A stretch of DNA of 64,000 bases, taken from the NCBI RefSeq assembly GCF_014084105.1, contig NZ_CP048289.1, positions 7,263,922 to 7,327,921 on the forward strand. Direction: 5' to 3'. Source of the stretch: Streptacidiphilus sp. P02-A3a (GTDB taxonomy: Bacteria > Actinomycetota > Actinomycetes > Streptomycetales > Streptomycetaceae). Of this stretch, positions 3,278 to 64,000 are shown piece by piece. The position numbers were made by a program, and so were the translations under genes. The notes under the pieces are model-generated. The model did no database searches and was not told the DNA's origin. It saw nothing but the letters and a program-made list of their open reading frames with translations. Every line of letters starts with the position of its first letter. Within the stretch, counting starts at the first letter, position 1.

Positions 3278-3281
3278 CGAC

Positions 3282-3327
3282 GTCGGCCCGCCACCCCCGT
3301 GGGGCGGCGGGCCGACGGGGGTGGCGG
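3282..3327. terminator. Bidirectional terminator with two alternative stems
   Basis: Between convergent genes. One stem pairs GTCGGCCCGCC (3282-3292) with 3306-3316. A competing 13-base stem pairs CCGCCACCCCCGT (3288-3300) with 3315-3327. Both are perfect and cannot form together. There is no T-run, as is usual for streptomycete terminators. Confidence 0.65.
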
Positions 3328-3330
3328 GGT

Positions 3331-9136: not shown

Positions 9137-10530
9137 AGCGCTTCGGCACCGCCGTCGGGCACGCCGCCACCGAACGCACCGCCACCGAACGCGCCGTACC
9201 CGGCCAGGCCGAGGACGAAGGAGACCAGCACCGTGGCCGGTCCGCCGATGTCGGCGTAGAGGAAGTCGACCAACTGCCAGACCAGCAGCCCGAGCAGGGC
9301 CGCGCCGAGGGCGTCCGGCGCGGCGGCGGCGCGCGATCGCCAGGCCCGCCGCAGCAGGCCGGTGAGCAGGCCGAGGAACAGCGCGGCGAAGGCGGTCAGC
9401 CCGACCAGCCCCTGCTCGCTGAGCACCAGCAGGTACATGTTGTGCGGCGAGAGCAGCGGCTCGCGGCTGAAGCCGGCGCCGGCCCCGGCCGTGTCGCTGC
9501 CGGAGGAGAGCCGCAGCGGCGCGTGGGCGTCCCGGAACTGCGGGAACTCCTTGGGTCCGACGCCGGTCGCCGGGTGCTGCCGCCAGATCGCCCCGGCGGT
9601 GGCCCACAGGTCGTAGCGGTCGCTGACCGAGTGGTCCGGGGCTCCGCCGGTGACCGAGGCGATGGTGCCGAGCCGGGCGACCACGCTGTCCCCGCCCAGG
9701 CCCAGGCCGCCGACCAGGACCACGGCGGCGGCCAGCGCGAACACCGCCCCGCGCAGCAGCAGCCGGACATCGGTGAGCAGCAGCCCGAGGCCGACCGCGC
9801 AGCCGGTGGCGATCCAGCTGCCGCGGCTGAACGACAGCGCCAGCGGCGCCACCAGCAGCAGCGCGGCCAGCCCGAATCCGGCGGCGGCCCGGCGGCGCCC
9901 GGCGGCGCGGGCCTCCAGCGCCAGTCCGAGCGCGGCGATCAGCCCGTAGCTGACCACGGCGGACATCGCCATGATGTCCTGCGCGCCGAAGGTACCGACG
10001 GCGCGGACGGTGCCGCCGTCGTAGGAGGCGCCGGTGCCGGTCAGGTACTGGTTCACCCCGACCGCGCCCTCCACCAGGGCGGCGGCGATCAGCGCGCCCA
10101 GCAGCAGCCGCAGGTCCCGCCGTCGGCGCAGGCTGAGCAGCACCGCCAGCGGCACCAGCACGAACACCTGGACGATCCGGACGAAGCCGGACAGGCTCTG
10201 CGCCGGGTCCTGCGAGGCGGCCGCGGCGACGGCGACGGCCAGCACCACCCCGCCGAACAGCAGCGCCGCCGGGACCGGCAGCAGCCGGGACCGGCCCAGG
10301 CGCAGCTCGGCGGCGGCGCGCAGCCCGCAGACGCCGACCAGGCCGACCGAGACCACGTCGGCCGGGGTGACGTGGACGGCGGCGGTGACGTCCTGGTCGC
10401 CGCCGGTGGGCAGGCAGACCAGCAGCACGGTGGCGGCGGCCAGCGCCGCCGGGAGCCGGTCGGAGGCCAGTACCCGCCGGAGCGCGCGCGGCGGTTCCGG
10501 CCGCGGTGCGGCGGTGGTCAGCAGGGTCAT
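9133..10530 (-). CDS. O-antigen ligase/Wzy-type polymerase membrane protein
   Basis: 465 residues, about 10-12 membrane segments. Seen: LSFSRGSWIATGCAVGLGLL near residue 235, a long periplasmic-type loop with DRYDLWATAGAIWRQHPATG, and HNMYLLVLSEQGLVGLTAF near residue 390. These are typical of the Wzy_C/O-antigen ligase domain (loop His and following E-x-GL-x-G). The role is polymerisation or ligation of lipid-linked units outside the membrane. The C-terminus ends in a small Gly-Gly-Ala-Phe repeat. It lies 5 bases downstream of the sugar transferase. Confidence 0.85.
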   Translation of the reverse strand: MTLLTTAAPRPEPPRALRRVLASDRLPAALAAATVLLVCLPTGGDQDVTAAVHVTPADVVSVGLVGVCGLRAAAELRLGRSRLLPVPAALLFGGVVLAVAVAAAASQDPAQSLSGFVRIVQVFVLVPLAVLLSLRRRRDLRLLLGALIAAALVEGAVGVNQYLTGTGASYDGGTVRAVGTFGAQDIMAMSAVVSYGLIAALGLALEARAAGRRRAAAGFGLAALLLVAPLALSFSRGSWIATGCAVGLGLLLTDVRLLLRGAVFALAAAVVLVGGLGLGGDSVVARLGTIASVTGGAPDHSVSDRYDLWATAGAIWRQHPATGVGPKEFPQFRDAHAPLRLSSGSDTAGAGAGFSREPLLSPHNMYLLVLSEQGLVGLTAFAALFLGLLTGLLRRAWRSRAAAAPDALGAALLGLLVWQLVDFLYADIGGPATVLVSFVLGLAGYGAFGGGAFGGGVPDGGAEAL

Positions 10531-10535
10531 CCGGG

Positions 10536-12113
10536 TCAGCTCCCGCCGGGGCGAAGGACCGAGGCGAGCGTCCGCAGCAGGATCTTGACGTCCTGCCAGA
10601 GGCTCCAGCTCTCGATGTAGTAGTTGTCGAAGCGGGTCCGGTCCTCGATCGAGGTGTCCCCGCGCAGGCCGTGGACCTGGGCGAATCCGGTGATGCCGAC
10701 CGGGACCCGGTGCCGGTCGCCGTAGCTCTGGTAGGCGTGGGTGAACCGGGCGACGAAGTAGGGGCGTTCCGGGCGCGGACCGACCAGGCTCATGTCGCCG
10801 CGCAGCACGTTCCACAGCTGCGGCAGCTCGTCCAGCGAGGTGCGCCGCAGGAAGCGGCCGGTGGGGCCGAGCCGGTGGTCCTGGGAGATGTTCCAGCGGG
10901 TGGCCGACTCGTTCTCGTCGTCGGGGCGCAGGGTACGGAACTTGAGCACGGTGAAGGGCCGGCCGTCGAGGCCGACCCGTTCCTGACGGAAGATCACCCC
11001 GGGGCCGCCGTCCAGGCGTACCGCGAGCGCGCAGCCGGCCAGCACCGGTGCGGCCAGCAGCAGGCCGACGGCCGCCAGCGCGGTGTCCACGCAGCGTTTG
11101 ACCGCCCAGGTGGGGCGGTGCATCGCGGGCTGGCCGAGGCGCAGACAGGGGAACCCCCACAGGTGGTCCACGGCGGCGGCGCGGCGGTTGCCGAACTCGA
11201 AGGCCCCGAAGTCGGGGACGCCGGGGACGAACCACACCTCGCAGCCGTACCGGGTGGCGGTGCGCAGCGTCCGCGCGGCCTGGGGGTCGCCGCTGCCGCC
11301 GAAGGTGATGATCACGTCGGTGACGTCCTGCCCGGCGATCTCCAGGTCCAGTGCCTCGGGGCCGCCGAGCACCGGGACGGCGGCGCTGGCGGCCAGGCCG
11401 GGGGCGAGCGCCGGGGCGGCGGCCAGGACCGCCTCCTCGGCCGGGCCCAGCGGCGGTTCGGAGTCGATGTAGCCGACCGGGCGCAGGCCGTACTCGGGGT
11501 GCTCCAGCAGCGCGGCGGCGACCCGGCGGCCGATCTGCCCGGCCCCGGCGATCAGGGTCGGCCTCGGGTGGCGCCGCCGGGTGCGGCGGAGCACCGCGTA
11601 GACGGCGGCGCGGCCGGGCAGGTCGAGGGCGAGCTGGCAGAGCAGCAGCCCGAGCAGCAGTCGGCCGTCCTCGGGGACGGCGCTCGGCCACAGGCCGTGC
11701 AGGCAGTGGTCGAGGGTGAGCGCGAACGCAGCCGAGGCGACGGCCCGGCCGCTGAGCGCGGGGAACTCGTCCAGGGCGGAGGGGGCGAGCCTGGTCCGGT
11801 AGAGCCCGCCCGCGTTGTTGAACAGCACCAGGACCGGGAACAGCCCGCTGGCCGCCCAGAGCGCGCCGAACAGGTCGCGGTTGCCGGCGGCGGCGACGGC
11901 GGCGAACACGGCCAGGCCGTCGACCACGAGCAGCGCCGTGGGCAGTCCGCCGCCGCGGGGTTCGGCGCGGTCCGTTCCGGTGGCCGGGCGGACCGGCGCG
12001 ACGCGGTCCTGGACGCCGCCGGTCGCGCTGCGGGCGAGGGCGAGCAGCCCGTGGCCCGAGGTGGTGGCCGCGAGGCCCGGGGGCGGCAGTTCATCGTTGT
12101 CGATGGTGGTCAT
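10536..12113 (-). CDS. Undecaprenyl-phosphate sugar phosphotransferase (WbaP-type)
   Basis: 525 residues. Four or five N-terminal membrane segments (residues about 45-160) are followed by a nucleotide-binding-like middle (PTLIAGAGQIGRRVAAALLE). The C-terminal catalytic bacterial sugar transferase domain carries KRCVDTALAAVG, VIFRQERVGLDGRPFTVLKF, RTSLDELPQLWNVLRGDMSL and VGPRPERPYF. It transfers a hexose-1-phosphate to undecaprenyl phosphate, the first committed step of repeat-unit assembly. It is the first gene of the minus-strand operon. GGGGAG precedes the ATG. No conserved KFRSM-type acceptor change is evident, so the sugar (glucose or galactose) cannot be predicted. Confidence 0.92.
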   Translation of the reverse strand: MTTIDNDELPPPGLAATTSGHGLLALARSATGGVQDRVAPVRPATGTDRAEPRGGGLPTALLVVDGLAVFAAVAAAGNRDLFGALWAASGLFPVLVLFNNAGGLYRTRLAPSALDEFPALSGRAVASAAFALTLDHCLHGLWPSAVPEDGRLLLGLLLCQLALDLPGRAAVYAVLRRTRRRHPRPTLIAGAGQIGRRVAAALLEHPEYGLRPVGYIDSEPPLGPAEEAVLAAAPALAPGLAASAAVPVLGGPEALDLEIAGQDVTDVIITFGGSGDPQAARTLRTATRYGCEVWFVPGVPDFGAFEFGNRRAAAVDHLWGFPCLRLGQPAMHRPTWAVKRCVDTALAAVGLLLAAPVLAGCALAVRLDGGPGVIFRQERVGLDGRPFTVLKFRTLRPDDENESATRWNISQDHRLGPTGRFLRRTSLDELPQLWNVLRGDMSLVGPRPERPYFVARFTHAYQSYGDRHRVPVGITGFAQVHGLRGDTSIEDRTRFDNYYIESWSLWQDVKILLRTLASVLRPGGS

Positions 12114-12299
12114 CAGCGCACGTACTCCCCTGCTCTAGGTCCGTGGCGTCAGAGGCCGCCTGCTGCCACGGGCGGGGTCGAGGTAGCACCTGCTGCCGCG
12201 CCCGGCATCCGGCTGGACTCACCGAGAAGAATGTGGCAGGTGAATTGGACATTACCGACATAAGACACATGAATTCAGCGCGAACGCCTGTTGTTCACC
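12114..12299 (-). promoter_or_regulatory. Likely promoter region of the exopolysaccharide operon
   Basis: A 186-base gap that is visibly richer in A and T (12230-12299) than its surroundings, directly ahead of the first operon gene. It holds two direct copies of CCTGCTGCC. A perfect ATGACTA-A-TAGTCAT inverted repeat (12303-12317) lies at the edge, inside the 3' end of the upstream GT4 gene. No clear -35/-10 pair could be fixed. Confidence 0.4.
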
Positions 12300-13478
12300 C
12301 TAATGACTAATAGTCATACCTTTATCGTCATATGTCTGTTCTGCGCCGTTTCGGCGCTCGCTCAGCACGTCCTGGTACACCCGTGCCACCCGCTCCCGGG
12401 TGAGCCGCACATCGCGCCGGTCGAAGACGTCCAGCCAGCCCCGCAGCCCCTCGGCGCGACAGCCCTCGCGGTCGGCCAGCCGAGCGGCCAGGGCCTCCCG
12501 CAGCGCGTCCGGATCGCCCGGCGGTACCGGCCCGGGCGCTCCCGCGGGCAGGCACTCGCGGGACCCGGCCACATCGGTCAGCAGCACCGGCCGGGAGCAG
12601 GCCATGGCCTCCAGCGGGGCCAGCGCCATCCCCTCCCAGCGGGAGGGGAGCACCATCAGGTCGGCCGCCACGTACCAGTCGCGCGGGTCCTCGACCGGAC
12701 CGGCGAAACGGACGCTGTCGGGGTCCGGGAGTTCCGCCGCCAATTCCTCAAGGGCGGCCCGGTCCGGCCCGTCGCCGACCAGGACCAGCCGTGCGCCGGG
12801 GACCCGCGCGGGCACCCCGGCCCAGGCCCGGAGCAGCACGTCCTGGCCCTTTTGCCGACAGAGCCGGCCGACGCAGACGGCGACCGGGGCGGCCGGGTCG
12901 TCGTCCAGACCGAGGATCGCCCGGGCCCGGTCGCGGGTGGGCAGCCGGGCGGAGTCGAAGCGGTCCAGGTCCAGGCCGTTCGGCGCGAGCGCCCACACCC
13001 CGCGCAGCCCGGCCGCCTCGCCCTCGCGGCGCTCCTGCTCGCTGACGCACAGCAGCCGGTCGGTCCAGCGGACCGCCCGGCGCTCCCAGACCCGCGCGGC
13101 CGCGGCCACCGGTCCCGACACCGCCGCGAACGACCAGGCGTGCGGCTGGAAGACGGTCGGCCGGGCGCCCCGGAGGGCCAGCCGTCCGGCCAGTCCGGCC
13201 TTGGCGCTGTGCAGGTGGACCAGCTGCGGGTCGCTCTCGGCGATCACCCGGCGCAACGCGGCCACCTCGCCCGGCAGTCCGGGGCCCGGACCGCGCCCGG
13301 CGGTCCAGGTGCGGACCCGTACCCCGGCGGTGACCGCCATCCCGGCCAGCCGCCCGCCCTCGGGGCAGGCGAGCACCACCCGGTGGCCGTCCGCGACCTG
13401 GCCGCGCGCCAGGTCGGCCACCACCTGGGCGACGCCGCCGTCGACGGGCTGGGACACATGAAGGATCGTCAGGGGCAC
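12300..13478 (-). CDS. GT4-family glycosyltransferase
   Basis: 392 residues from the chosen GTG, which opens directly into the GT-B first strand (LTILHVSQPVDGGVAQVVAD). An in-frame start at 13547 would add 23 residues with no family counterpart. Other motifs: VHLHSAKAGLAGRLAL, LAPNGLDLDRF, VAVCVGRLCRQKGQDVLLRA near residue 215 and LPSRWEGMALAPLEAMA near residue 290 (E-x7-E region). Cytoplasmic sugar transferase, donor unknown. The terminal 12 codons are unusually AT-rich. It is separated from the main operon by a likely promoter, so it may be transcribed on its own or read through. Confidence 0.88.
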   Translation of the reverse strand: MPLTILHVSQPVDGGVAQVVADLARGQVADGHRVVLACPEGGRLAGMAVTAGVRVRTWTAGRGPGPGLPGEVAALRRVIAESDPQLVHLHSAKAGLAGRLALRGARPTVFQPHAWSFAAVSGPVAAAARVWERRAVRWTDRLLCVSEQERREGEAAGLRGVWALAPNGLDLDRFDSARLPTRDRARAILGLDDDPAAPVAVCVGRLCRQKGQDVLLRAWAGVPARVPGARLVLVGDGPDRAALEELAAELPDPDSVRFAGPVEDPRDWYVAADLMVLPSRWEGMALAPLEAMACSRPVLLTDVAGSRECLPAGAPGPVPPGDPDALREALAARLADREGCRAEGLRGWLDVFDRRDVRLTRERVARVYQDVLSERRNGAEQTYDDKGMTISH

Positions 13479-13579
13479 GGCGATCAACCTAGGGCGCGGC
13501 AACCGAACACGAGCGCCGCGCTCACTCAGGTGGCGGACATGATCCACCCGTGCGGGCGATCACCGGTGACCTGCGCGGG

Positions 13580-52729: not shown

Positions 52730-55045
52730 CTACGCCCGGCCGTCGAGCAGCGGGGTGATCTCCGCGCGCGAGGAGACGCCGAGCTTGGCCAGGATGTGCT
52801 CGACGTGGGCGTCGGCGGTGCGCTTGGAGATCACCAGCCGTTCGGCCACCTCGCGGTTGGACAGGCCGGCGGCGACGAGCGCGGCGACCTCGCGTTCGCG
52901 GCGGGTCAGCGGGCCCGGTCCGGGCTCGGGCGGCGGCGCGGCCTGCCGGGGCAGGTCGGCGGGGGTGTCCGCGTCGGCGAGCGCGAGTTCCACCAGTTGG
53001 CTCAGCGGCAGCCGCCGTCCGAGCCCGGCGGCCTGCTCGTAGCGTTCGGCGCCGAGTTCGGCGCGGGCCAGGCGCTCCGACTCGATGCGGTGGCGGAGCA
53101 TCGACTCGACGCCGCTGAGCGGGCGTCCGGACCGCTTCCACTGCTCCTCGGCCGCGCCGAGCAGCCAGGCGCCGCGCTCCGGGCGCCGCTGGGCGACCGC
53201 GCTCCAGGCGAGCAGTTCCAGGCTGTACGCGATGCCGACGGCGTCCTCCAGGTCGCCCTTGACGCACAGCGCCTCGCGGGCGGTGCGGGCGCACTCCTCC
53301 TGCTCGCCGCGCAGCCACAGCGCCATGCCCCGGAAGACCAGCAGGAAGCCCCGGATCCAGCGCTCCCCCGGGGCGTCCGCGATGTCGGCCAGGGCCTGGG
53401 CGGAGAGCCGCGCGGCCCGGTCCGGGCGGTCCCGCAGGATCATGCCGACGGTCTCCAGGTTGGACAGCACGGCCAGCGCGAACCGGTCGCCGGTGGGCTG
53501 GAGCAGCTCCCTGGCCCGCTGGAAGCAGCGTTCGGAGGTCTCCCAGTCGTCGCCGGAGACCGCGTGCAGGCCGCGGTACTGCTCGACATGGCCGAGGAGC
53601 ACCGGGTCGCCGAGGTCCGAGGCGATGGCGTACGCCTCGGCCAGGCACTGGCCGACCTCGTCGTACTGGCCCATCAGCAGGTCGAAGTGGCCGACCGCGG
53701 TGAGCGCCCGGGCCCGGTCGGGTCCGGCTTCCGGCGCGCCCGCCAGCGCCCGCAGCAGCCAGTGCCTTCCCTCGGCCAACTGCCCTGCGCAGGCCCAGTA
53801 GCCGCACAGGTCGACGGTCAACGACAGGGCGGCCCGGGCGCGTTCGGGCCGGTCCAGGGCGTGGTCGAGGGCGGCGCGGAGGTTGGCCTGCTCACCGGCC
53901 AGCGCGCGGAACCGGGCCAGCTGCTCGGAGCTGAGGAAGACCGCCGCGAAGCCGGAGGCCAGCTCCCGGTAGCAGTCGAAGTGCCGGGCCCGCAGCTGCT
54001 CCTCCTCGCCGAGGGTGGCCAGCCATTCGGCGCCGTACTCGCGGATGGTGTCGAGCAGGCGGTAGCGGGTTCCTGACGGGTCGTCGACTCGGAGCACCAC
54101 CGACTTGTCGACCAGGCCGATCAGCTGCTCCAGCACGTCGTCCGGGCCGAGTTCGCCGCCGGAGCAGACCGCCTCGACCGCGAGCAGGTCGAAGCTGCCC
54201 GCGAACACCGAGAGCCGGGCCCACAGCAGCCGCTCCTGCGGCGAGCACAGTTCGTGGCTCCAGCCGATGGTGGTGCGCAGGGTCTGGTGCCTCGGCAGGG
54301 CGGTCCGGCGGCCGCCGGTGAGCAGCCGGAAGCGGTCCTCCAGGCGCAGCGCCAGCTGGTCCAGCGGGATCGCCCGCAGCCGTACCGTGGCCAGTTCGAT
54401 CGCCAGCGGGATGCCGTCCAGGCGGCGGCAGAGGGCCAGTACGTCGGCGGTGTTGGCCTCGGTGAGGGTGAAGCCGGGGACGACCGCGGCGGCGCGCTGG
54501 GCGAACAGCGCGACCGCGCCGTTGGCGTCCTCGGCGCCGGTCTCCACCGGCAGCGGCGGGATGACCAGGGTGTGCTCGCCGGGGACGTCCAGCGGCTGGC
54601 GGCTGGTGGCCAGGATGCTGGTGCCGGGCGAGTCCCTCAGCAGCAGGTCGGTCAGCATCGCGCAGGCGTCGACCAGGTGTTCGCAGGTGTCAAGTACCAG
54701 CAGCGTGGCGCGCCCGGACAGGTACTCGGTGAGCAGGTCGAGCGCGGGGCGGGCGGTCTGCTCGCTGAGCCCGAGCGCGGCGCAGACGGTGCGCGGCAGC
54801 AGTTCCGGGTCGGCCAGCGCGGACAGCTCCACCAGGTAGACGCCGTCCGGGTAGTGCTCGCGCAGCGCGGAAACCGCCCGCAGCGCGACCCGGGTCTTGC
54901 CGACCCCGCCGGGACCGGTCAGGGTCACCATCCGGGAGAGGCCCAGCATCCGCTGCACGGACGCCAGTTCGACACTGCGGCCGATGAAGCCGGTCACCTC
55001 CGCGGGCAGTTCGCCGCCGCGCCTCCCCGGCACCCCGAAGGTCAT
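52730..55045 (-). CDS. LuxR-family transcriptional regulator with NB-ARC ATPase and TPR domains
   Basis: 771 residues. P-loop TLTGPGGVGKTR (residues 41-52), Walker B TLLVLDTCEHLVDACAML, RRLDGIPLAIELATVRLRAI, winged-helix RYRLLDTIREYGAEW, a helical TPR-like middle (about 350-690) and a C-terminal LuxR helix-turn-helix: LTRREREVAALVAAGLSNRE then VAERLVISKRTADAHVEHIL. This is the large ATP-dependent regulator type common in streptomycetes. GAGGCGAGG precedes the ATG. It sits beside the second glycan locus, on the same strand as the deacetylase 51 bases upstream, and may control it. Confidence 0.9.
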   Translation of the reverse strand: MTFGVPGRRGGELPAEVTGFIGRSVELASVQRMLGLSRMVTLTGPGGVGKTRVALRAVSALREHYPDGVYLVELSALADPELLPRTVCAALGLSEQTARPALDLLTEYLSGRATLLVLDTCEHLVDACAMLTDLLLRDSPGTSILATSRQPLDVPGEHTLVIPPLPVETGAEDANGAVALFAQRAAAVVPGFTLTEANTADVLALCRRLDGIPLAIELATVRLRAIPLDQLALRLEDRFRLLTGGRRTALPRHQTLRTTIGWSHELCSPQERLLWARLSVFAGSFDLLAVEAVCSGGELGPDDVLEQLIGLVDKSVVLRVDDPSGTRYRLLDTIREYGAEWLATLGEEEQLRARHFDCYRELASGFAAVFLSSEQLARFRALAGEQANLRAALDHALDRPERARAALSLTVDLCGYWACAGQLAEGRHWLLRALAGAPEAGPDRARALTAVGHFDLLMGQYDEVGQCLAEAYAIASDLGDPVLLGHVEQYRGLHAVSGDDWETSERCFQRARELLQPTGDRFALAVLSNLETVGMILRDRPDRAARLSAQALADIADAPGERWIRGFLLVFRGMALWLRGEQEECARTAREALCVKGDLEDAVGIAYSLELLAWSAVAQRRPERGAWLLGAAEEQWKRSGRPLSGVESMLRHRIESERLARAELGAERYEQAAGLGRRLPLSQLVELALADADTPADLPRQAAPPPEPGPGPLTRREREVAALVAAGLSNREVAERLVISKRTADAHVEHILAKLGVSSRAEITPLLDGRA

Positions 55046-55096
55046 CCTCGCCTCACCCGGATCTCCGACCGACACGGACCCAGGGTACGCGGAACG

Positions 55097-55972
55097 CTAC
55101 CCGCCGTGATGCGGTTGACTGATCTCGGTGCCGGAAGGCGTGTCGGCGGCGGTGGTCCGGACCAGCATCCGGCGACCGCGCCGGGCCACCGCGTAGCCCC
55201 GGGTGAGCAGCCGGTCCCTGCCGTACAGCCGGGCCAGCGAGTGGCCCTGGACCAGCGCGCAGAAGTCCTCCAGGCCGGTGCCGCGGCGCACGGTGAGCCG
55301 GGACAGGGCGTAGGGGCCCTGCCGGGGTTCGGCCATGGCGTTGGCCACCGCGCAGGCCCCGGCGTAGCCGCGGCCGCGCACCGCCCGGCGGACCCTGGCG
55401 TCGGAGTAGCCGAAGGGGTAGCCGAAGGTCTCCAGCGGGCGCTGCAACCGCTGCTCCAGCAAATATTGATTGAGCGTCAGTTCGTGTGCCAGCAGCGCCG
55501 GGGGCAACTGGTCGAGTTGCGGATGGCTGTGGCTGTGCCCGCCGATCTCGACTCCCTCGGCGGCGGCCTCGGCCAGCTGGCCCCAGCTCAGCGACTCCCC
55601 CAGCGGCAGGCCCGCGCTCCAGGACCCGGCGTCGGCGAGCCAGCCGGTGGTGACGTAGAGGCTGGCGGTGGCCCGGTGCTCGGCCAGCAGCGGCAGCACC
55701 GTCCGGTGGAAGTCCGCGTAGCCGTCGTCGAAGGTCAGTACGACCGGCCGGTCCGGCAGCCGGGGCGCCTCCAGTCCGAGCGCCTGCCGGCGCCAGTGCC
55801 GGACCAGGGTGGCCATGGTGACCGCGGTGAAGCCCATGTCGTACAGCACCGCGAGCTGCGCGGCGAAGTCGTCCGGGTGCACCGAGAGCGCCCTGGTCCG
55901 CGGGGCGGGGTCGGCGTGCACCGAGTGGTACATCAGCACCGGCACCCGGTCGTTCATCTGACTTGACGTCAT
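55097..55972 (-). CDS. Polysaccharide deacetylase (CE4)
   Basis: 291 residues. CE4 motifs: LMYHSVHADP near residue 13, VVLTFDDGYADFH near residue 76, EIGGHSHSHPQLDQL near residue 142, FGYPFGYSDARVRR near residue 185. No signal peptide seen. Its ATG overlaps the GT2 stop by four bases (ATGA), so it works on the same glycan. The layout is close to the deacetylase of the left locus. Confidence 0.9.
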   Translation of the reverse strand: MTSSQMNDRVPVLMYHSVHADPAPRTRALSVHPDDFAAQLAVLYDMGFTAVTMATLVRHWRRQALGLEAPRLPDRPVVLTFDDGYADFHRTVLPLLAEHRATASLYVTTGWLADAGSWSAGLPLGESLSWGQLAEAAAEGVEIGGHSHSHPQLDQLPPALLAHELTLNQYLLEQRLQRPLETFGYPFGYSDARVRRAVRGRGYAGACAVANAMAEPRQGPYALSRLTVRRGTGLEDFCALVQGHSLARLYGRDRLLTRGYAVARRGRRMLVRTTAADTPSGTEISQPHHGG

Positions 55973-56952
55973 CTATGGTTCCCTCGGTCACTGTTGGCAC
56001 GTAGTTGCCACGATCCCAGGACGTATCCGACGGCAGTGATCAGCCCGCCGGAGGTGATGGCGGCGGCCCGGGCCAGCCCTGCGACATCGCCGCGCAGGGT
56101 CTCCGCCAGGCCGCGCAGGATGCCCGCCGGGAGCGTCCTGGAGGCGTAGTAGCGCTCGCTGGACAGGCCGTCGCCGGCCCCGACCCGGCCCGCCACCTGG
56201 GCCTTGGACAACCCCTCGGCCCAGCAGCGGGTGCGGAAGTAGCCGAAGCGCTGGCGCTCGATCGGGACCCGGTGGTGGATCACCGAGCGGTCGTCGAAGA
56301 GGAACACCGAACCGGGGCGCTCCTGGTGGATCCGGATGCACAGCTCGGTCTCCTCGCCGCCCAGCGGGCGCACCGGCCTGCCGTCGCCGCCCGCGTCGGC
56401 GCCCCGGCCGATCCCGGCGCTGAAGCCGCCGACCGACTCGAAGACGCCGCGCCGGAACGAGGCGTTGCCACCGAGCACGTTGCGGACCCGGGCCCGGCCG
56501 GTGGGCATGCCCCGGTAGGTGGCGCCGTGCACCCAGTCGAACTCCTGCGGGTACCAGCCGGGTCGGCGCCCGGAGTCCCAGACCGGCAGGGTCAGCCCGC
56601 CGACGCCCATCACCTCCGGATCGGCGAAGCCGTCGGCGAACCAGCGCAGCCAGTCCCGCTCGGCGACCGCGTCGTCGTCCAGGAACGCCACGATCCCGCC
56701 GCGGGCGGCGGCGACCCCGGTGTTCCGGCCGCCGGACAGGCCCCGGGCATGGCTGTTGGCGATCACCTGGACCGGTTCGGTGCCCACCAGCCGGGCCCGC
56801 AGCCGGGTCAGCAGCCGCGGGTTGTGGTCGACCACGACCAGCACCTCCAGCGGCGGCAGGCTCTGCTTCAGGGCGGAGTCCACCGCCGCCAGCAGGTCGT
56901 CCCACCGGTCCTCGGTGTACCCGCAGATGATCACTGACACGTCGTCCGGCAT
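55969..56952 (-). CDS. GT2-family glycosyltransferase
   Basis: 327 residues, GT-A fold. Seen: VSVIICGYTEDRWDDLLAAV, VVVDHNPRLL, GLSGGRNTGVAAARGGIVAF, the metal-binding FLDDDA near residue 92, VLGGNASFRRGVFESVGGFS, the catalytic-base region GEETELCIRIHQE near residue 200. A weak C-terminal hydrophobic segment (GLARAAAITSGGLITAVGYV) may anchor it. Clearly paralogous to the GT2 part of the divergent 977-residue protein. GGGGGG lies ahead of the ATG. Confidence 0.9.
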   Translation of the reverse strand: MPDDVSVIICGYTEDRWDDLLAAVDSALKQSLPPLEVLVVVDHNPRLLTRLRARLVGTEPVQVIANSHARGLSGGRNTGVAAARGGIVAFLDDDAVAERDWLRWFADGFADPEVMGVGGLTLPVWDSGRRPGWYPQEFDWVHGATYRGMPTGRARVRNVLGGNASFRRGVFESVGGFSAGIGRGADAGGDGRPVRPLGGEETELCIRIHQERPGSVFLFDDRSVIHHRVPIERQRFGYFRTRCWAEGLSKAQVAGRVGAGDGLSSERYYASRTLPAGILRGLAETLRGDVAGLARAAAITSGGLITAVGYVLGSWQLRANSDRGNHR

Positions 56953-57104
56953 CCCAGCCCCCCAGTACCGTCCGGACGTTGCGACCGCCCGGACACCGTT
57001 CTGCCGCGCACCCCGTAGCCGCCGGGGCAGCGGACCCCCCGCAGCAGAAGGTGCCCGCTGCTCGGGACGTTAACCGGCAGCGGCCGGTTCGTCTCCCGCT
57101 TCGC

Positions 57105-57115
57105 CGGTATATCCG
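57105..57115 (+). promoter_or_regulatory. CGGTATATCCG element upstream of GT2-polymerase gene
   Basis: Identical to 1847-1857 in sequence and orientation and at a similar distance (about 107 bases) from the next plus-strand start. It lies in a 270-base divergent gap between two GT2 genes that otherwise shows no coding sign. Confidence 0.35.
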
Positions 57116-57222
57116 GGGAGGACTCGGCCGCGCGGTTGATTCACGGCCAACATTGAGCATGGATCAGGGTCGCGCCGCCATTCCGCTCCGTATGCTGTCC
57201 GGAGGGCTGGGAAGCGCTGCCT

Positions 57223-60156
57223 ATGGGGGGACGACGCATAGTGCAAGAGATCATTTCCGGGACACCCGAACGGTCCCCGCTACCACCCGAACCCGCTGAC
57301 CCGCTGAACCGGCTGACCTTGACCGTGATCGTCTGTGCGTACACGCTCGACCGCTGGGACGATATCGTCCGCGCCGTCCAGTCCCTGCGTGACCAGGAAA
57401 GACATCCGGACCAGATCATCCTGGTGACCGACCACAACCCGGAGCTCCAGCAACGCGCCGCCGCCCGCTTCGCGGACCTGGAGGTGATCCCCAACAACGA
57501 GGGCCCGGGCCTGTCCGGCGCCCGCAACACCGGCATCGCCGCCGCCCGCGAGGACGTCGTCGCCTTCCTCGACGACGACGCCGCCGCCGCGCCCGACTGG
57601 GCGGCCACCCTGCTCTCCGGCTACCGGGACCCGAGGGTGATCGGCGTCGGCGGGTGGATCGAACCGGACTGGGAGGCCGGGCGCCCCGGCTGGTTCCCGG
57701 CCGAGTTCGACTGGGTCGTCGGCTGCGCCTACACCGGGCTGCCGGAGGCCCCGGTGCCGATCCGGAACATGATCGGCGCCAACATGTCGCTGCGCCGGGA
57801 GGTCTTCGGCGCCATCGGCGGCTTCAGCCAGGACCTGGGCCGCACCGGCGCGCTGCCGCTCGGCTGCGAGGAGACCGAGCTGTGCATCCGCGCCGGACGC
57901 CACTACCGGGACGGCGTCATCCTCTACCTGCCCGAGGCCGTGGTCCGGCACCACGTCGGCGCCCGGCGCGGCACCTGGCGCTACTTCCTGGACCGCTGCC
58001 TGAGGGAGGGCCTGTCCAAGGCCGCGGTGAGCCGGATGGCGGGCCCCAGCGCCGCGCTGGCGTCCGAACGCGCGTACCTGTGCCGGACCATACCGCGGGC
58101 GCTGGGCCGGACCCTGCTCCCCGGCGCCGGACGCTACCCGCTGGCCAACCTCCCGGCGCTGCTGCTCGGGGTGGCGCTGACCGCCCTCGGCTACCTCGGC
58201 GGCCGGACCCGCCAGCTGTTCCTGCCCACCCCCGACAGCGCGCCGGCCACCGGCGGCCCCGCCCCCGCCGTCCGCCCCGGCCGGACCGCGCTGGGGCTGC
58301 TGCCGCCGCTCGCCGCCGCGCTCGGACTGTGGGCCTGGTCCATCCGGCACGTGGACGTCAGCGACCTCGGCGGCTTCGGGCTGCCCGCGCGCCTGCCCTG
58401 GAGCTACTGGGCCTCGGTGGCGCTGCTGCTGCTCGGCTTCGTCGGCGCGATGCGGCGGCGCGGACGGCACCCGCTGTGGCCGGCCGCGTACACGGTGGCG
58501 CTGCTGGTGGTGCAGCGGGCCACCTCGGCGCTGGTCTACCACACCCTGCTGTACGCCTGGACCTGGAAGCACATCGACATCATCGACCGGCTGCTGGCCA
58601 ACGGCGGCCATGTCGAACTGGGCGACCAGCTGGGCGCGATGGCCCCGTACGACCAGTGGGTCGGCTTCTTCGCCGGCAACGCCGCGCTGATCCGGCTGCT
58701 CGGCCTCAACACCGCGCTCTCCTACGCCGCCTGGGCACCACTGGTCTCCAGCCTGGTGCTGGTCGTGCCGCTGTACCTGATCTTCCGCTGCTTCAGCCGG
58801 GACCAGCGGCTGGTCTGGACCGCCGTGTGGATCTTCTTCCTGGGCAACTGGGTCGGCCAGGACTACTTCTCCCCGCAGGCCTTCGCGCTCTTCCTGTACC
58901 TGGGCGTGCTGGCGGTGGTGCTCCGGCAGTTCGCCCGCGAGGGCCGCCCCGGGCTGCTCGCCGTGCTGGACGCCGGATACCCCCTCGGCGCCCGACCCCG
59001 GCGACCGCTGGACCGCCGCCGCCGGACGCTGTGGACGCTGCTGCTGGTCCCGGTCATCACCGCCATCGCCGCCGCGCACCAACTCACGCCGGTGATGCTG
59101 GCGGTGGGACTGGCCGCGCTCTGCCTCACCCGCCGCTACCGCAACCTCTGGCTGGCGGCGCTGGCCTGCGCCATCCCCGCCGCCTGGGACCTCAGCTCCG
59201 CGCTGGCCTTCTTCAAGCTGCAACTCCCGCAGATGGCACAGTCCTTCGGCGACCTGCTGGCCAACTCCGAGGCCGGGGGCGGCACCACGCCCACCGGCCT
59301 GGGCCCGGTCACCATCTCCTACCTGGACCGGGGGCTGTCCGCCGGGGTGGCGCTGCTGGCCGTGGCCGGGCTGCTGCGGCATCCGCCGCTGCGCCGGGCC
59401 GGACTGCCGCTGCTGCTGCTCGGGATCTCGCCGATGCCGATGGCGGTGGCCAACAACTACGGCGGCGAGATGATCTTCCGGGTCTACCTGTTCGCGCTGC
59501 CCGGCCTGGCCTTCTTCGCCGCCGCCGCGCTCCAGCCCGGCCCGGCCACGCGCCGCACCGTCTCCTGGGGGCGGCGGACGGCCACCGCGCCGCTGCAACG
59601 GCCGCGCACCGCGCTGCTGAACGTCGCCGTGCTGGCACTGCTGGCCGGGGCCTTCTTCCCCAGCTACTACGGCAAGGACCGGGTCAACTACTTCCCGACC
59701 GGCGAGATCCAACTGGTGGACCGGCTGTACACGATCGCGCCGCCCGGCTCGCAGATCATCGCGGCCACGCCCAACTTCCCGGACGCCTACCGCAACTACG
59801 ACGAGTACACGCTGTGGTGGCTCTCCGACGACGACCAGGCCAGCAACAGAGCGCTGCTGGCGGACCCGGCGGGCTACCTCACCGGGCAGCGGCAGACCGG
59901 CTGGATCCACCAGCAGGACCCGAAGGCCTACTCGTACGTGATCCTCACCCGGGCGCAGTACGCGGACGTCGCCATGGACGGCCTGCTGCCGCCCGGCTCG
60001 GTCCAGCGGATCCAGGCGTCCCTGGCCGCCTCGCCCCGGTTCCGGGTGGTGCTGCGGAACGCCGACGGCATCGTCTACCAGGTCCTGCCGCCCGACCCCG
60101 GCGCCGGTGCCACCGACAGCGCCGGGGTCACCGAGAGCACCGGGAGCGCCCCATGA
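57223..60156 (+). CDS. GT2 glycosyltransferase fused to a polytopic membrane (polymerase-like) domain
   Basis: 977 residues. Residues about 30-300 form a GT2 domain: LTVIVCAYTLDRWDDIVRAV, GLSGARNTGIAAAREDVVAF, FLDDDAAAAPDW, MIGANMSLRREVFGAIGGFS, GCEETELCIRAG. Residues about 300-870 have some dozen hydrophobic segments with VAALLLLGF-type helices, NWVGQDYFSPQAFALFLYLG, AAHQLTPVMLAVGLAALCLT and NNYGGEMIFRVYLFALPGLA, resembling GT-C/Wzy-like membrane proteins. A soluble C-terminal part of about 120 residues follows. One chain could add a sugar inside and polymerise or transfer outside. ATG 57223 has a weak ribosome site; GTG 57241 is possible. It overlaps the next gene by four bases. Confidence 0.85.
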   Translation: MGGRRIVQEIISGTPERSPLPPEPADPLNRLTLTVIVCAYTLDRWDDIVRAVQSLRDQERHPDQIILVTDHNPELQQRAAARFADLEVIPNNEGPGLSGARNTGIAAAREDVVAFLDDDAAAAPDWAATLLSGYRDPRVIGVGGWIEPDWEAGRPGWFPAEFDWVVGCAYTGLPEAPVPIRNMIGANMSLRREVFGAIGGFSQDLGRTGALPLGCEETELCIRAGRHYRDGVILYLPEAVVRHHVGARRGTWRYFLDRCLREGLSKAAVSRMAGPSAALASERAYLCRTIPRALGRTLLPGAGRYPLANLPALLLGVALTALGYLGGRTRQLFLPTPDSAPATGGPAPAVRPGRTALGLLPPLAAALGLWAWSIRHVDVSDLGGFGLPARLPWSYWASVALLLLGFVGAMRRRGRHPLWPAAYTVALLVVQRATSALVYHTLLYAWTWKHIDIIDRLLANGGHVELGDQLGAMAPYDQWVGFFAGNAALIRLLGLNTALSYAAWAPLVSSLVLVVPLYLIFRCFSRDQRLVWTAVWIFFLGNWVGQDYFSPQAFALFLYLGVLAVVLRQFAREGRPGLLAVLDAGYPLGARPRRPLDRRRRTLWTLLLVPVITAIAAAHQLTPVMLAVGLAALCLTRRYRNLWLAALACAIPAAWDLSSALAFFKLQLPQMAQSFGDLLANSEAGGGTTPTGLGPVTISYLDRGLSAGVALLAVAGLLRHPPLRRAGLPLLLLGISPMPMAVANNYGGEMIFRVYLFALPGLAFFAAAALQPGPATRRTVSWGRRTATAPLQRPRTALLNVAVLALLAGAFFPSYYGKDRVNYFPTGEIQLVDRLYTIAPPGSQIIAATPNFPDAYRNYDEYTLWWLSDDDQASNRALLADPAGYLTGQRQTGWIHQQDPKAYSYVILTRAQYADVAMDGLLPPGSVQRIQASLAASPRFRVVLRNADGIVYQVLPPDPGAGATDSAGVTESTGSAP

Positions 60157-60584
60157 CCCTCGTCGCCCGGTTCACCCCGGCCGCCACCGGCTGGCTCGCG
60201 CTGCTGCTGGTCGACGGGCTCCCGGCCGCCGCGCCGCTGCGGATGGCCGCGGTCACGGTGTTCCTGCTCTGCTGCCCCGGGCTGGCGCTGCTGCGCCCGC
60301 TGCGCCCGGCGCTGCTCGGCCCCGCCACCGACCGGGCCCAGGACGAGGCCCAGGACGAGGGCGACCGGGACGGCCGGGGGGCGGTGACCGCGCAGAACCT
60401 GCTGCTGGTGCTGATGCTGAGCCTGTCCGCGCTGGTCCTCGCCGCCACCGCGCTGATGCTGGCCGGGGCGTTCAGCGGCAGCGGCACCCTGGTCGTGCTG
60501 GCCGCGCTCACCAGCGCCGCCGCCCTCTGCCCGGCGCCACGGGCCGAACGGCGGCCGGGGACGCCCCCGGCGGCTGCCGGGTGA
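60153..60584 (+). CDS. Small membrane protein of the second glycan locus
   Basis: 143 residues. Membrane segments at about 12-50 (GWLALLLVDGLPAAAPLRMA, VTVFLLCCPGLALL) and 85-125 (NLLLVLMLSLSALVLAATAL), separated by an acidic Asp/Glu/Gln repeat (RAQDEAQDEGDRDGRG). Family unknown. Coupled by ATGA to the GT2-polymerase and by GTGA to the GH26 gene, so it is likely an accessory subunit of the polymerising machine. Confidence 0.75.
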   Translation: MTLVARFTPAATGWLALLLVDGLPAAAPLRMAAVTVFLLCCPGLALLRPLRPALLGPATDRAQDEAQDEGDRDGRGAVTAQNLLLVLMLSLSALVLAATALMLAGAFSGSGTLVVLAALTSAAALCPAPRAERRPGTPPAAAG

Positions 60585-61663
60585 CCGGGTCCCGGCACCG
60601 ACCGCGGCGGGCCGCGGCGCTCCGCCGGCGGACGCTGCTGGCGGCCGGAGCCGGACTGGCGCTGCTGCTGGGCCTGCTGCTGTACCTGCCGCCGCCTGCC
60701 CAGGGCCACCGCGCTCCGGCCGCCGCCCGGTGCGCGGCCGGTCCCTCGCTGGCGCCGCCCTGCGGCGCCTGGTGGGGCGCCTACGTGCCGACCGGACCGG
60801 ACGGCCTGGTGGCCTCGGTCACCGCGCTGGAGCAGCGGATCGGGCGGCGGCTGGACCTGGTGTACACGTACCACGACATGGGCTCCGGCACCGACGGCCA
60901 GCTGCTCGACCCGGCCGAGCAGCGGTTGGGCACCGACCACCTGCTGATGCTGTCCTGGGAGTCGGACGTCTGGTCGGACACCGCCCCTGGCGGCAGCACA
61001 CCGCTGGGCTGGGCGAGGATCGCCGCCGGGGACTACGACGCGTCGGTGATCGATCCGCAGGCGGAGCGGGTCAAGGCGTACGGCCGGACGGTGCTGATCG
61101 CCTTCGACCAGGAGATGGACTCGCGCACCCCGGTCGACGGCACCCCGGCCCAGTTCGTCGCCGCCTACCGGCATGTGGTGGACCGCTTCCGGCAGTTGGG
61201 CGTGACCAACGTCCGCTGGGTGTGGACCGTCACCGGCTACCTGCCGCACACCCAGCTGTTCAGCGAGATGTACCCGGGCGACTCCTACGTCGACTGGATC
61301 GCCTTCGACCAGTACAACTACTACGGCTGCAAGGGAAATCCGGACTGGCTGTCGTTCGCGCAGACCGAACTGCCCAGCTACACCTGGATCCGGACGCACA
61401 TCTCGGCGACCAAGCCGCTGATGCTCGCGGAGTTCAGCACCGCCGTCGACCATGCCCACCCGGACGCCCAACAGCAGTGGTACCAGCAGGTTCCGCAGGT
61501 GCTGGAGCGGCAACTGCCGGGCGTCCGCGCGGTGGTGCAGTGGGACTCCTCGGTCCCGGGGCCGGACTGCGACCTGTCGCTGGACACCGGGCCCGCCCTC
61601 AGCGGCTTCACCGGCGCCGGACACAGCCCCTACCTGAACCAGCCACTGCCCGGCGGGAGTTGA
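60581..61663 (+). CDS. Membrane-anchored or secreted GH26-family glycoside hydrolase
   Basis: 360 residues. Twin-Arg-like basic start followed by a hydrophobic segment (TLLAAGAGLALLLGLLLYLP), so it is exported. Catalytic candidates: Glu178 in AFDQEMDS and Glu284 in MLAEFSTA, 106 apart, matching GH26 spacing. WTVTGYLPHT and DWIAFDQYNYYGCKG are also GH26-like. Cys pairs may form disulfides. The GTG overlaps the previous stop. Encoded in the polymerase transcript, it probably edits or releases the polymer. It resembles the enzyme at 1976 in layout but lacks its Ser/Pro tail. Confidence 0.83.
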   Translation: MTGSRHRPRRAAALRRRTLLAAGAGLALLLGLLLYLPPPAQGHRAPAAARCAAGPSLAPPCGAWWGAYVPTGPDGLVASVTALEQRIGRRLDLVYTYHDMGSGTDGQLLDPAEQRLGTDHLLMLSWESDVWSDTAPGGSTPLGWARIAAGDYDASVIDPQAERVKAYGRTVLIAFDQEMDSRTPVDGTPAQFVAAYRHVVDRFRQLGVTNVRWVWTVTGYLPHTQLFSEMYPGDSYVDWIAFDQYNYYGCKGNPDWLSFAQTELPSYTWIRTHISATKPLMLAEFSTAVDHAHPDAQQQWYQQVPQVLERQLPGVRAVVQWDSSVPGPDCDLSLDTGPALSGFTGAGHSPYLNQPLPGGS

Positions 61664-61672
61664 CCGCCGGGC

Positions 61673-62497
61673 TCAGCCCGCGAAGCGGGGACCGCTGACG
61701 GCGGCCCGGGCCCGGCGGTAGACCCGCCAGCCGACGGTGCGCGGCCGGTCCGGAAAGGGAGCCACCGGGGCGCCCGATCCGGCCAGCCAGGAGGCGAGTT
61801 CGGCAGTGGTGTCGGTGCTCCTCAGCATCAGCCGGGCGATCCGGTACGGGTCGTCCCGGGTGGAGCTGAGGGCGTCGCGCACCGCCGCGGCCGAGCTGTA
61901 CCCGGCCTCCCGCACCAACCTCCGCACGGCCGGGCTGTTGTAGCCGTGCGGGTAGGCGAAGGCCGGTACCGGGACGCCCAGGGCGTCCTCCAGCACCTCT
62001 TTGGGCACCCGCAGTTCCCGCCGGACGGCGGCGGCGGGCAGGGTGTCCAGCTGCGGGTGGGTGACCGTGTGCGCGCCGACCTCCAGACCGCAGTCGGTGA
62101 CCTCCTTGAGCTGACCTAGCGTCATCATCGGTGCCGGTGGCAGCAGGCAGCGCGGGTCCGCGCCGCCGAGCGCGCCGGTGGTGAGGTACGCGGTGGCGGT
62201 CAGTCCGCGCGCGGCCAGCGCGGGCGCGGTGAAGCCGGGCAGGTCGGCGAAGCCGTCGTCGATGGTGATCACCACCGGACGTGCGGGCAGCGGCGCCCGT
62301 CCGGCCAGCGCCTCGGTCAGTCCGGTCGCGGTCAGCGGGGTCCGGCCGCTGTCCCGGACGGCGTCCAGTTGCGCGGCGAACTCCCCCGGCCGGACCGTGA
62401 ACTGGGCGATCCAGGCGGGCGGGTCCTCCATCACCGCGTGGTAGAGCAGCACCGGTATCCGCGCGCCCACCGGTATCCGTTCCCTCGTCCCGGCCAT
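61673..62497 (-). CDS. Polysaccharide deacetylase (CE4)
   Basis: 274 residues. Motifs: VLLYHAVMEDPPAWIAQFTV near residue 17, VITIDDGFADLPG near residue 75, EVGAHTVTHPQLDTL near residue 139, FAYPHGYNSPAVRRLV near residue 175. Convergent with the GH26 gene, 9 bases apart; a CGGGC-TCA-GCCCG hairpin (61668-61680) spans the stop. Third CE4 protein of the window. 54 bases downstream of the flippase on the same strand. Confidence 0.9.
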   Translation of the reverse strand: MAGTRERIPVGARIPVLLYHAVMEDPPAWIAQFTVRPGEFAAQLDAVRDSGRTPLTATGLTEALAGRAPLPARPVVITIDDGFADLPGFTAPALAARGLTATAYLTTGALGGADPRCLLPPAPMMTLGQLKEVTDCGLEVGAHTVTHPQLDTLPAAAVRRELRVPKEVLEDALGVPVPAFAYPHGYNSPAVRRLVREAGYSSAAAVRDALSSTRDDPYRIARLMLRSTDTTAELASWLAGSGAPVAPFPDRPRTVGWRVYRRARAAVSGPRFAG

Positions 62498-62551
62498 CGC
62501 CGCCCCCCGACCACTCGCCCGTCCCCGGCGCTCCCCGGGTCACGCCCACGC

Positions 62552-63982
62552 TCAGTGTTCCTCCTCCGCCGGGGTCCGATCCCGTTGCTGCGGAATCGTC
62601 ATCCGCGGCAGCGGTGGCGGTGCCGGGGTCCGTGGCGGGCGCGGCAGCCAGGAGTCCCGGAACACCAGCAGCGCCGCGGCCACCAGTACTTGGGTGACCA
62701 GCCAGGCCAGGCCCATACCGGCCAGGCCGAACCTCGGCACGAGGACCTGGAACAGGCCGAACACCAGGGCGCAGGTGGCTCCGTAGACCACCACCACCAT
62801 CACCGCCCGGCGGCGCACCCGGTAGGCGGCCAGCGCGGTGGCGATGATCAGGTTGGGCAGCGAGGAGAGCGCCAGCAGCCGCAGCAGGGCGGTGGCGTGG
62901 CCCGGGTAGTCCGAGCCGAACAGCCGCAGCACCAGCGGCGCGGCGGCGATCAGCGCGGCGGCCCCGCCCAGCAGCAGCGCCCCGGTGCCGCGCAGTACCG
63001 TCCGCACCGCCTTCGCCAGCCGCTTCGGGTCGCCCGCGGACTCGACCACGATCGACGAGCCCATGTTGATGCTGATCACGTACAGCATGGTGGTGATCAC
63101 CCAGCTGATGGAGAAGTAGGCGCTGTCCCTGGCTCCGAGCGTGTCCAGGATCAGCACCTGCGGCAGGGTGGAGGCGGCCAGCCAGAACAGTCCGCCGACG
63201 TAGGTGGCGGCGGTGAAGCGGACCAGTCCGGCGGTGGACTCGGCCGGGATCAGGTGCAGCCCGGTGACGTCGCCCGGCTGGGCGTCCCGGGCCCAGGAGG
63301 GTCGCCGCTCCATCCGGCTGACCTCGCGTTCCCGGGCCGGGATGGCGAAGCCGAAGAGGTAGGTGTTGACGTAGAGCAGGGCCAGCAGCAGCGCCACCGT
63401 CCAGGACAGCAGGATGCCGGAGTCGCGCACGGACAGCGCGAACAGGGCGACCGCCACCAGCTTGGAGAGGGAGAAGAGCAGCTGCTCGCCGAGTACCCAG
63501 CTGGGTCGGCGCAGGCCGGTCAGTACGCCGTCCTGGAGGATGAAGATGCCGTAGGCGACCACCGCGACCACGAACACCGTGCCGGTCAGCGGGGTGTGCA
63601 GGAAGCCCAGCCCGGGTGAGACCCAGGGGACCAGCAGCACGAAGCCGACCCCGACCAGCAGCGCCAGCGCGATCGAGGCCAGGTAGGCGCGGGTGACGAT
63701 GCGCCGGGTAGCGCTGCCCGCCGAGGGCGCGAAGCGCACCATCACGTCCGCGAGGTTCAGTTGGGACACCCCGCCGAGGAACATCACCATGGAGACGGCG
63801 GAGTAGTTCCGGCCCACGGTGCTGGTGGAGTAGTGCAGTCCGGGCCCGACCACGGACCAGTAGGCGGCGCCGAGCACCGAGGAGGCCAGCGAGGCCAGGG
63901 TCAGCACCACGCCGTTGCGCAGCAGCGGGTCGCCGCCGAGGAACCGCCCCAGCAGCGGCAGCCCGGCCAGCCGCTGGGCCAC
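62552..63982 (-). CDS. Wzx-like polysaccharide flippase (MOP superfamily)
   Basis: At least 476 residues with about 12-14 membrane segments: NGVVLTLASLASSVLGAAYW at the start, YSAVSMVMFLGGVSQLNLAD, LYVISINMGSSIVVESAGDP and FGLAGMGLAWLVTQVLVAAA near the end. It matches the polysaccharide biosynthesis/Wzx branch and would move lipid-linked units across the membrane. The C-terminal tail is Pro-rich. The GTG at 63982 lies 18 bases from the window end and the frame stays open, so the true start may be further upstream. Confidence 0.85.
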   Translation of the reverse strand: MAQRLAGLPLLGRFLGGDPLLRNGVVLTLASLASSVLGAAYWSVVGPGLHYSTSTVGRNYSAVSMVMFLGGVSQLNLADVMVRFAPSAGSATRRIVTRAYLASIALALLVGVGFVLLVPWVSPGLGFLHTPLTGTVFVVAVVAYGIFILQDGVLTGLRRPSWVLGEQLLFSLSKLVAVALFALSVRDSGILLSWTVALLLALLYVNTYLFGFAIPAREREVSRMERRPSWARDAQPGDVTGLHLIPAESTAGLVRFTAATYVGGLFWLAASTLPQVLILDTLGARDSAYFSISWVITTMLYVISINMGSSIVVESAGDPKRLAKAVRTVLRGTGALLLGGAAALIAAAPLVLRLFGSDYPGHATALLRLLALSSLPNLIIATALAAYRVRRRAVMVVVVYGATCALVFGLFQVLVPRFGLAGMGLAWLVTQVLVAAALLVFRDSWLPRPPRTPAPPPLPRMTIPQQRDRTPAEEEH

Positions 63983-64000
63983 CGTGCTGGTGCGCCGCCT

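Follow-up and report, generated by a model that had tools for sequence, protein, structure and literature searches.

A probable lipid-linked glycan assembly locus in Streptacidiphilus: an exchangeable hydrolase beside an unclassified enzyme of predicted GT-C type

Towards the right-hand end of a 64,000-nucleotide stretch of the genome of Streptacidiphilus sp. P02-A3a, a soil organism allied to Streptomyces (NZ_CP048289.1, positions 7,263,922 to 7,327,921; hereafter the window, which sits within a single 9.33-Mb contig), we identified a glycan locus with the following order: a CE4 deacetylase (DAC1) and a GT2 glycosyltransferase (GT2a) on the minus strand, a 270-bp gap, a fusion gene (GT2n-POLc), a small membrane gene and a GH26 glycoside hydrolase on the plus strand, and a second deacetylase (DAC2) and a flippase (FLIP) on the minus strand (Table 1). 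The locus is probably a variant of lipid-linked glycan assembly, notable for an unclassified GT-C-type enzyme and for a hydrolase that is exchangeable between related loci. We judge it slightly better than even that the locus makes one surface or exported heteropolysaccharide, by the five-step route set out below.

A first-pass annotation of the window had proposed a single surface-glycan locus with GT2 enzymes, two CE4 deacetylases, a GH26 and a flippase, and these families are matched by Pfam, the flippase by a predicted model. The gene content is thus real, but the interval given was too short: the run has three or more additional genes beyond it. Past base 64000 the minus-strand run continues with a gene for a 402-amino-acid (aa) protein (PRT), GT2b and GT2c, and is followed by a divergent ATP-grasp-type gene. 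Neighbouring genes overlap by 4 bp at DAC1/GT2a, fusion/small gene, small gene/GH26 and GT2b/GT2c and by 11 bp at PRT/GT2b, an arrangement that would be compatible with translational coupling.

The fused membrane enzyme and its partner genes

The fusion protein comprises GT2n (about residues 1-340) and POLc (about 346-977), a multi-transmembrane, GT-C-type domain with a soluble C-terminal part. Up to E = 1, no match of POLc to any Pfam family was found, Wzy_C included, and its profile finds no sequence match in the PDB except a DARPin artefact. The structure model of POLc (predicted template modelling score 0.68) matches the GT-C_A enzymes OST/PglB (GT66; OST, oligosaccharyltransferase), ArnT (GT83) and AftA/Emb (GT53), and a GT-C_A fold is accordingly predicted. 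OST has the highest Z score (19.2). The structure matches listed are all GT-C types other than Wzy, which does not in itself exclude Wzy, and the absence of WaaL and SEDS from that list is not evidence against either. For the catalytic Asp/Glu that GT-C_A enzymes have in the first outer loop, the conserved acidic residues D202 and E404 of POLc are possible candidates; QDYxxPQ and HQLTP are further motifs of the protein. Judged by its model, POLc seems to be a GT-C glycosyltransferase of the OST/ArnT kind and is not recognisable as a Wzy. The earlier description of a polymerase-like domain fused to a GT2 therefore stands for the fusion of a GT2 with a membrane enzyme, and gives way to an OST/ArnT-like GT-C assignment for the enzyme itself.

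The flippase has no Pfam match at 0.01, and its predicted model resembles WzxE, MATE and MurJ, which bears out the earlier Wzx-like label and gives the locus the MOP-type flippase expected of a Wzx/Wzy pathway, at the level of predicted fold. If translation began 13 codons earlier, a little past the end of the window, the protein would be 489 aa long. The small membrane protein scores 15.8 bits against DUF1616 (cut-off 31.6); at E up to 1 it gives weak DUF1616 and DUF7524 matches and none to GtrA. The small GtrA flippase of three-part GT-A/GtrA/GT-C glycosylation systems was thus not found, the flippase of the locus being of the MOP type. DAC1 and DAC2 both retain the DDG and H-x-x-x-H metal motifs of CE4 deacetylases, and a hydropathy scan finds neither a transmembrane nor a signal-like segment in either; DAC1 is probably cytoplasmic. 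GT2a likewise has no transmembrane segment and scores 195 bits against the AglG model NF041394, under its cut-off of 440.

In agreement with the first-pass annotation, none of the models listed for the scanned locus genes is of the BcsA type, and no poly-N-acetylglucosamine (PNAG) synthase is found: the best PgaC score, that of GT2b, is 45.7 bits, where the cut-off is 422. With PgaB at most 71.2 of 321.9 bits, a PNAG (pga/ica) pathway was rejected, both scores being far under their cut-offs.

Conservation of the locus and exchange of its hydrolase

We searched 200 genomes of the family, its own included, with the fusion and the GH26 as queries. A GH26 at E <1e-100 occurs in 18 other genomes, and in 18/18 it is preceded on the same strand by a POLc, at 416-1122 bp when the window is counted with them. 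This order is kept in every case, and the linkage, on which the first-pass annotation had made its reading depend, is therefore more than chance. Weaker GH26 matches come no nearer to a POLc place than about 68 kb (two lists compared by eye). Among 48 named loci picked by GH26, and so biased to that family by selection (L004-L051), POLc is present in 44, DAC2 and GT2b in 45 each and FLIP in 43; of the four without POLc, three are on contigs <9 kb and L048 is not. No GH16 was found in these 48 loci, where GH16 was sought and GH39 was not. Across the phylum, 11 of 246 genomes, the genome of origin among them, gave a POLc in a search with one sequence. One locus outside the family, L049 of Streptosporangium canum, carries GT2c, GT2a, DAC1, FLIP, an acetyltransferase, DegT, GH26 and GT2-POLc, together with a P450-looking gene (5107-6345, by eye only).

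At least 66 POLc places lie outside the genome of origin; 60 of them were fetched (leaving out G038, G031:C58, G066, G049, G092 and the second of G181), and 20 further loci were selected because their flippase match fell in a long frame. The 81 loci read come from at least 77 of the 200 family genomes, its own included, with two loci each in G058, G050, G157 and G041. Loci of the window's type with GH26 (n=5) all have GT2n, POLc, DAC2, FLIP, PRT, GT2b, GT2c and ATP-grasp, and DAC1 and GT2a in 4/5. The Streptomyces type with GH26 (n=14) has a DegT aminotransferase, FLIP, POLc, DAC2, GT2b and a PF13480 acetyltransferase in 14/14, and a GT2c match in 0/14 of the stretches read. In a GH16 type (n=36), FLIP and GT2b occur in 36, DAC2, GT2n and GT2c in 34 each and ATP-grasp in 27, and in a GH39 type (n=20), GT2c, GT2a, DAC1, FLIP and POLc occur in 20/20. 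The Streptomyces-type acetyltransferase has no match at 0.001 in the genome of the window, which does not in itself establish its absence.

Three hydrolase families (GH26, GH16 and GH39-like) were sought in the 81 loci at a threshold of 50 bits. The first 61, window included, hold GH26 in 19, GH16 in 36, a GH39-like gene in one and none of these in five, one of which (L159) stops at a contig end; the 20 flippase-selected loci have a GH39-like gene in 20/20. One of the three families is therefore present in 76/81 loci, and two together in 0/81. A sister-locus GH16 matches PF00722 at 1.9e-20; the one GH16 tested has an endo-1,3-beta-glucanase as its nearest solved structure (2.7e-18), and by NCBIfam one sister-locus GH16 matches EglC, BglS and ExoK, all below cut-off (EglC 99.9 bits, cut-off 700). 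For GH39 the family was assigned from a single protein (L169; 25.5 bits, just under the Pfam cut-off of 26). A quick POLc tree with long branches was built from 96 of 133 rows, the 133 excluding L127, which is broken into pieces in the source, and the four named loci without POLc. In this tree 26 Streptomycetaceae GH26 rows cluster with two hydrolase-less rows (support 99), and 36 GH16 rows with three hydrolase-less rows and the GH39-like L169 (87, not starred). The three hydrolase states require three changes, one above the minimum, which makes one independent exchange of the hydrolase likely on such a tree. The machinery thus appears to be largely kept among relatives while the polymer-cutting enzyme is swapped for unrelated families.

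Some loci have further features. The hybrid locus L169 (G157) combines a GH16-group POLc, a flippase fused to a GT2 (PF00535, weak PF01943) and an acetyltransferase with a DAC1 match and with a GH39-like gene whose product, judged by eye, has a lipobox. In L183 and L184 a single long frame (1170 and 1162 aa, truncated where the loci end) contains or adjoins the matches to flippase and POLc, as though these formed a single protein, and L187-L206 are of the same type. GH16-type loci (L116, L117, L119 and others) also carry matches to a PAS-GGDEF-EAL gene (cyclic di-GMP; 23/36) and an FAD oxidoreductase (26/36) in the stretches read.

The window's GH26, with a likely GTG start at 60581, has one N-terminal membrane segment (residues 18-36, hydropathy scan) and is probably exported and membrane-anchored. 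By sequence, its nearest solved structure is Lic26A of Clostridium thermocellum (Endoglucanase H, a GH26 lichenase): the single sequence gives 3.3e-16, against 3.7e-5 for an unspecified GH26 entry and 3.3e-4 for mannanases, and a profile of 22 relatives gives 2.3e-29 across nearly the whole domain, against 2.5e-11 for a beta-1,3-xylanase, 1.7e-9 for the unspecified entry and 5.2e-7 or weaker for named mannanases. The catalytic Glu pair, E181 and E287, is invariant in 67/67 GH26 rows from the loci. At fixed offsets in the same rows, the residue before the acid/base Glu is Leu in 34, Gln in 30, Gly in three and His in none; the residue four before is Ser in 59, Ala in five, Gly in three and Arg in none; and the residue five after is Trp in 0/67. 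The HE-motif His, the -1 Arg and the +1 Trp are described as conserved in GH26 mannanase branches (PMC6556568, available part). Each is missing from all locus rows, so by signature this GH26 is not a mannanase, and the beta-mannan backbone that the first-pass annotation had drawn from the family is not supported. In the alignments Lic26A also has Arg, His and Trp around its acid/base Glu, unlike the locus rows. A mixed-linkage beta-glucan, tempting in view of the lichenase-like GH26 and the endo-1,3-beta-glucanase-like GH16, is not claimed because the GH26 is without these Lic26A active-site residues and the GH39-like protein has no PDB match at 0.01.

A proposed assembly route and its alternatives

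We infer the carrier, donor, order of steps, polymer and biological role largely from the gene families. The GT2 enzymes, with GT2c of the polyprenyl-phosphate-sugar synthase type, would join sugars inside the cell into a short chain carried on a polyprenyl lipid. DAC1 and DAC2, each probably paired with its own GT2, would deacetylate amino sugars of the lipid-linked intermediate there, before export. The WzxE-like flippase would then turn this intermediate outward, and POLc, perhaps assisted by the small membrane protein, would join the flipped units or pass them to the growing chain, OST-like block transfer being slightly favoured over transfer of single sugars. Outside, the anchored GH26 may cut or trim the polymer, as its position and the precedents of ExoK, PslG and BcsZ suggest. 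The hydrolase would track the polymer, GH16 or GH39-like enzymes taking its place at sister loci.

Several observations weigh against this route. No initiating Bac_transf (PF02397) lies in the locus; a genome-wide search for PF02397 found two, one 45 kb away in the window and one 0.7 Mb away, and these could act in trans. No Wzz family is found among the locus genes scanned, and the absence of a signal peptide in the CE4s is judged by hydropathy only. The POLc model is of middling confidence (predicted local distance difference test 69.7), just three Foldseek matches reach 0.001, and identity to the structure matches is about 9-14%. In the same genus, G050 (L114) retains the genes of the window type at 72-83% identity (56% for the small gene), and no GH26 match was found in its genome, though the small membrane gene is kept; by its gene set, the hydrolase is thus dispensable there. 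L115 is also without a hydrolase of the three families in the stretch read.

The strongest competitor, which we nevertheless regard as unlikely, takes POLc for an ArnT/AftA-like transferase of single sugars that decorates an existing wall polymer, with GT2c making a polyprenyl-phosphate-sugar that the deacetylase modifies before it is flipped. The flippase is WzxE-like, however, and WzxE moves a lipid-PP-trisaccharide (PP, pyrophosphate); OST, whose Z score is the highest, uses a lipid-PP-oligosaccharide; no GT2c match turned up in what was read of the Streptomyces-type GH26 loci; and a dedicated glycan hydrolase fits a polymer more naturally. That hydrolase, present at nearly all loci, also points to a polymer, as does the likeness of the examined GH16 to an endo-1,3-beta-glucanase; we therefore find it improbable that the locus glycosylates exported proteins, with POLc transferring glycans en bloc as an OST does. 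Glycosyltransferases, a Wzx-like flippase, a membrane enzyme and a hydrolase are content typical of Wzx/Wzy clusters, but a classical pathway in which POLc is merely a diverged Wzy seems to us more doubtful still: the library that finds no Wzy_C in POLc finds it at 3.3e-16 in a second cluster of the window, the fold matches listed are other GT-C types, and Wzz and Bac_transf genes are not in the locus. Least credible is the reading in which a GH26 beta-mannanase cuts a polymer that is beta-mannan or rich in mannose. The Pfam assignment and the description of GH26 enzymes as primarily endo-beta-1,4-mannanases (PMC13390465, available part) would favour it, but we rejected it on the Lic26A-leaning profile, the missing active-site residues and the replacement of GH26 by GH16 in sister loci.

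Beyond the heteropolysaccharide route itself, we tentatively propose, at somewhat less than even, an undescribed assembly class. In it, a WzxE-like flippase would feed a new GT-C_A family doing the job of Wzy, deacetylation would precede export, the hydrolase slot would be refilled from GH26, GH16 or GH39-like enzymes as the polymer changes, and the GH26 branch would have a new specificity without the HE motif.

Related systems, neighbouring genes and significance

No description of this locus type was found in our searches of open-licence papers, in line with the earlier remark that it matches no known streptomycete system. The closest is the wps-1 cluster of Actinoplanes missouriensis, required for normal sporangia, an actinobacterial glycan cluster with a flippase, GT2 and GH26 (WpsE); its authors state that, to their knowledge, no GH26-containing Wzx/Wzy-dependent cluster had been characterised before (PMC13390465). 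In the available part of that source, the wps-1 genes include a Wzy of the O-antigen-ligase type, Wzz, GT26 and sulfotransferases but not a CE4, whereas the locus studied here has a GT-C-type enzyme fused to a GT2, two CE4s and no Wzz. In Micromonospora mirobrigensis (L052), a GH26 lies near Wzz-, polymerase/O-antigen-ligase-, flippase- and sulfotransferase-looking genes, wps-1-like by eye only.

ExoK/EglC (GH16), PslG (GH39) and BcsZ are biosynthetic hydrolases in Wzy or synthase systems. They resemble the present case in that one dedicated hydrolase belongs to an exopolysaccharide gene set; here, in contrast, a single machinery with a GT-C-type enzyme is accompanied by one or another of three hydrolase families. 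In the Caulobacter holdfast (hfs), HfsK has a PF13480 domain, and the polymerase and export parts differ from those of our locus. The holdfast genes include a CE4 deacetylase, HfsH, and the acetyltransferase HfsK (PMC8449245, available part), comparable with the PF13480 acetyltransferase of the Streptomyces-type GH26 loci, while the locus CE4s reach just 24-28 bits of the 400-bit HfsH cut-off. A tentative identification of the GH39-type loci with the S. coelicolor cwg cluster (SCO6179-6190) was dropped, as the available part of PMC5839063 lists other functions.

Of the flanking genes, the ATPase/LuxR-type regulator 21 bp from DAC1 possibly belongs to the locus unit and is matched in 3/7 window-type loci (L003, L114, L115; within the stretches read). 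The 402-aa protein (L003:11982-13190; about 64060-65268 in the window's frame) has relatives in all five window-type GH26 loci and no Pfam or NCBIfam match at 0.01, 'PRT-like' being a by-eye label only. The gene after the ATP-grasp-type gene was labelled cobI by eye only. A second, classical-looking exopolysaccharide cluster occupies 2300-13547 of the window (Table 1).

Table 1. Positions of the genes discussed, in window coordinates
Feature	Position	Strand	Length (aa)	Basis
GH26 match (second cluster)	2549-2737	+		24.3 bits; Pfam scan took another frame
PF13480 acetyltransferase (second cluster)	3331-4464	-		
CE4 (second cluster)	within 6636-9185	-		
Wzy_C (second cluster)	9133-10527	-		
Bac_transf (second cluster)	10536-12113	-		
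GT4 (second cluster)	12300-13547	-		
ATPase/LuxR-type regulator	52730..55075	-		GerE 3.1e-16
DAC1, CE4 polysaccharide deacetylase	55097..55972	-	291	PF01522 2.9e-23; TFDDG and HSHSH motifs
GT2a, soluble AglG-like GT2	55969..56952	-	327	PF00535 1.3e-21
GT2n-POLc fusion	57223..60156	+	977	PF00535 1e-20 at N-terminus
Small membrane protein, weakly DUF1616-like	60153..60584	+	143	3 predicted transmembrane segments; PF07760 0.0078
GH26 glycoside hydrolase	60581..61663	+	360	PF02156 8.9e-7 (29 bits, cut-off 20.2)
DAC2, CE4 deacetylase	61673..62497	-	274	PF01522 1.1e-17; TIDDG and HTVTH motifs
FLIP, MOP-superfamily Wzx-type flippase	62552..63982	-	476	predicted model, WzxE/MATE/MurJ-like

Apart from teichoic-type polymers, the CslA/GlxA glucan and PNAG-like polymers, little is known of the surface glycans of streptomycetes. 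The machinery described here is not rare in the family, given its 81 loci in at least 77 of 200 genomes. The exchangeable hydrolase gives a handle on polymers still to be isolated, and one hydrolase per locus offers a direct assay, in which each recombinant enzyme is expected to attack the polymer made by its own locus. Should POLc prove to be a polymerase, it would represent a class of its own, separate from the Wzy families known so far.

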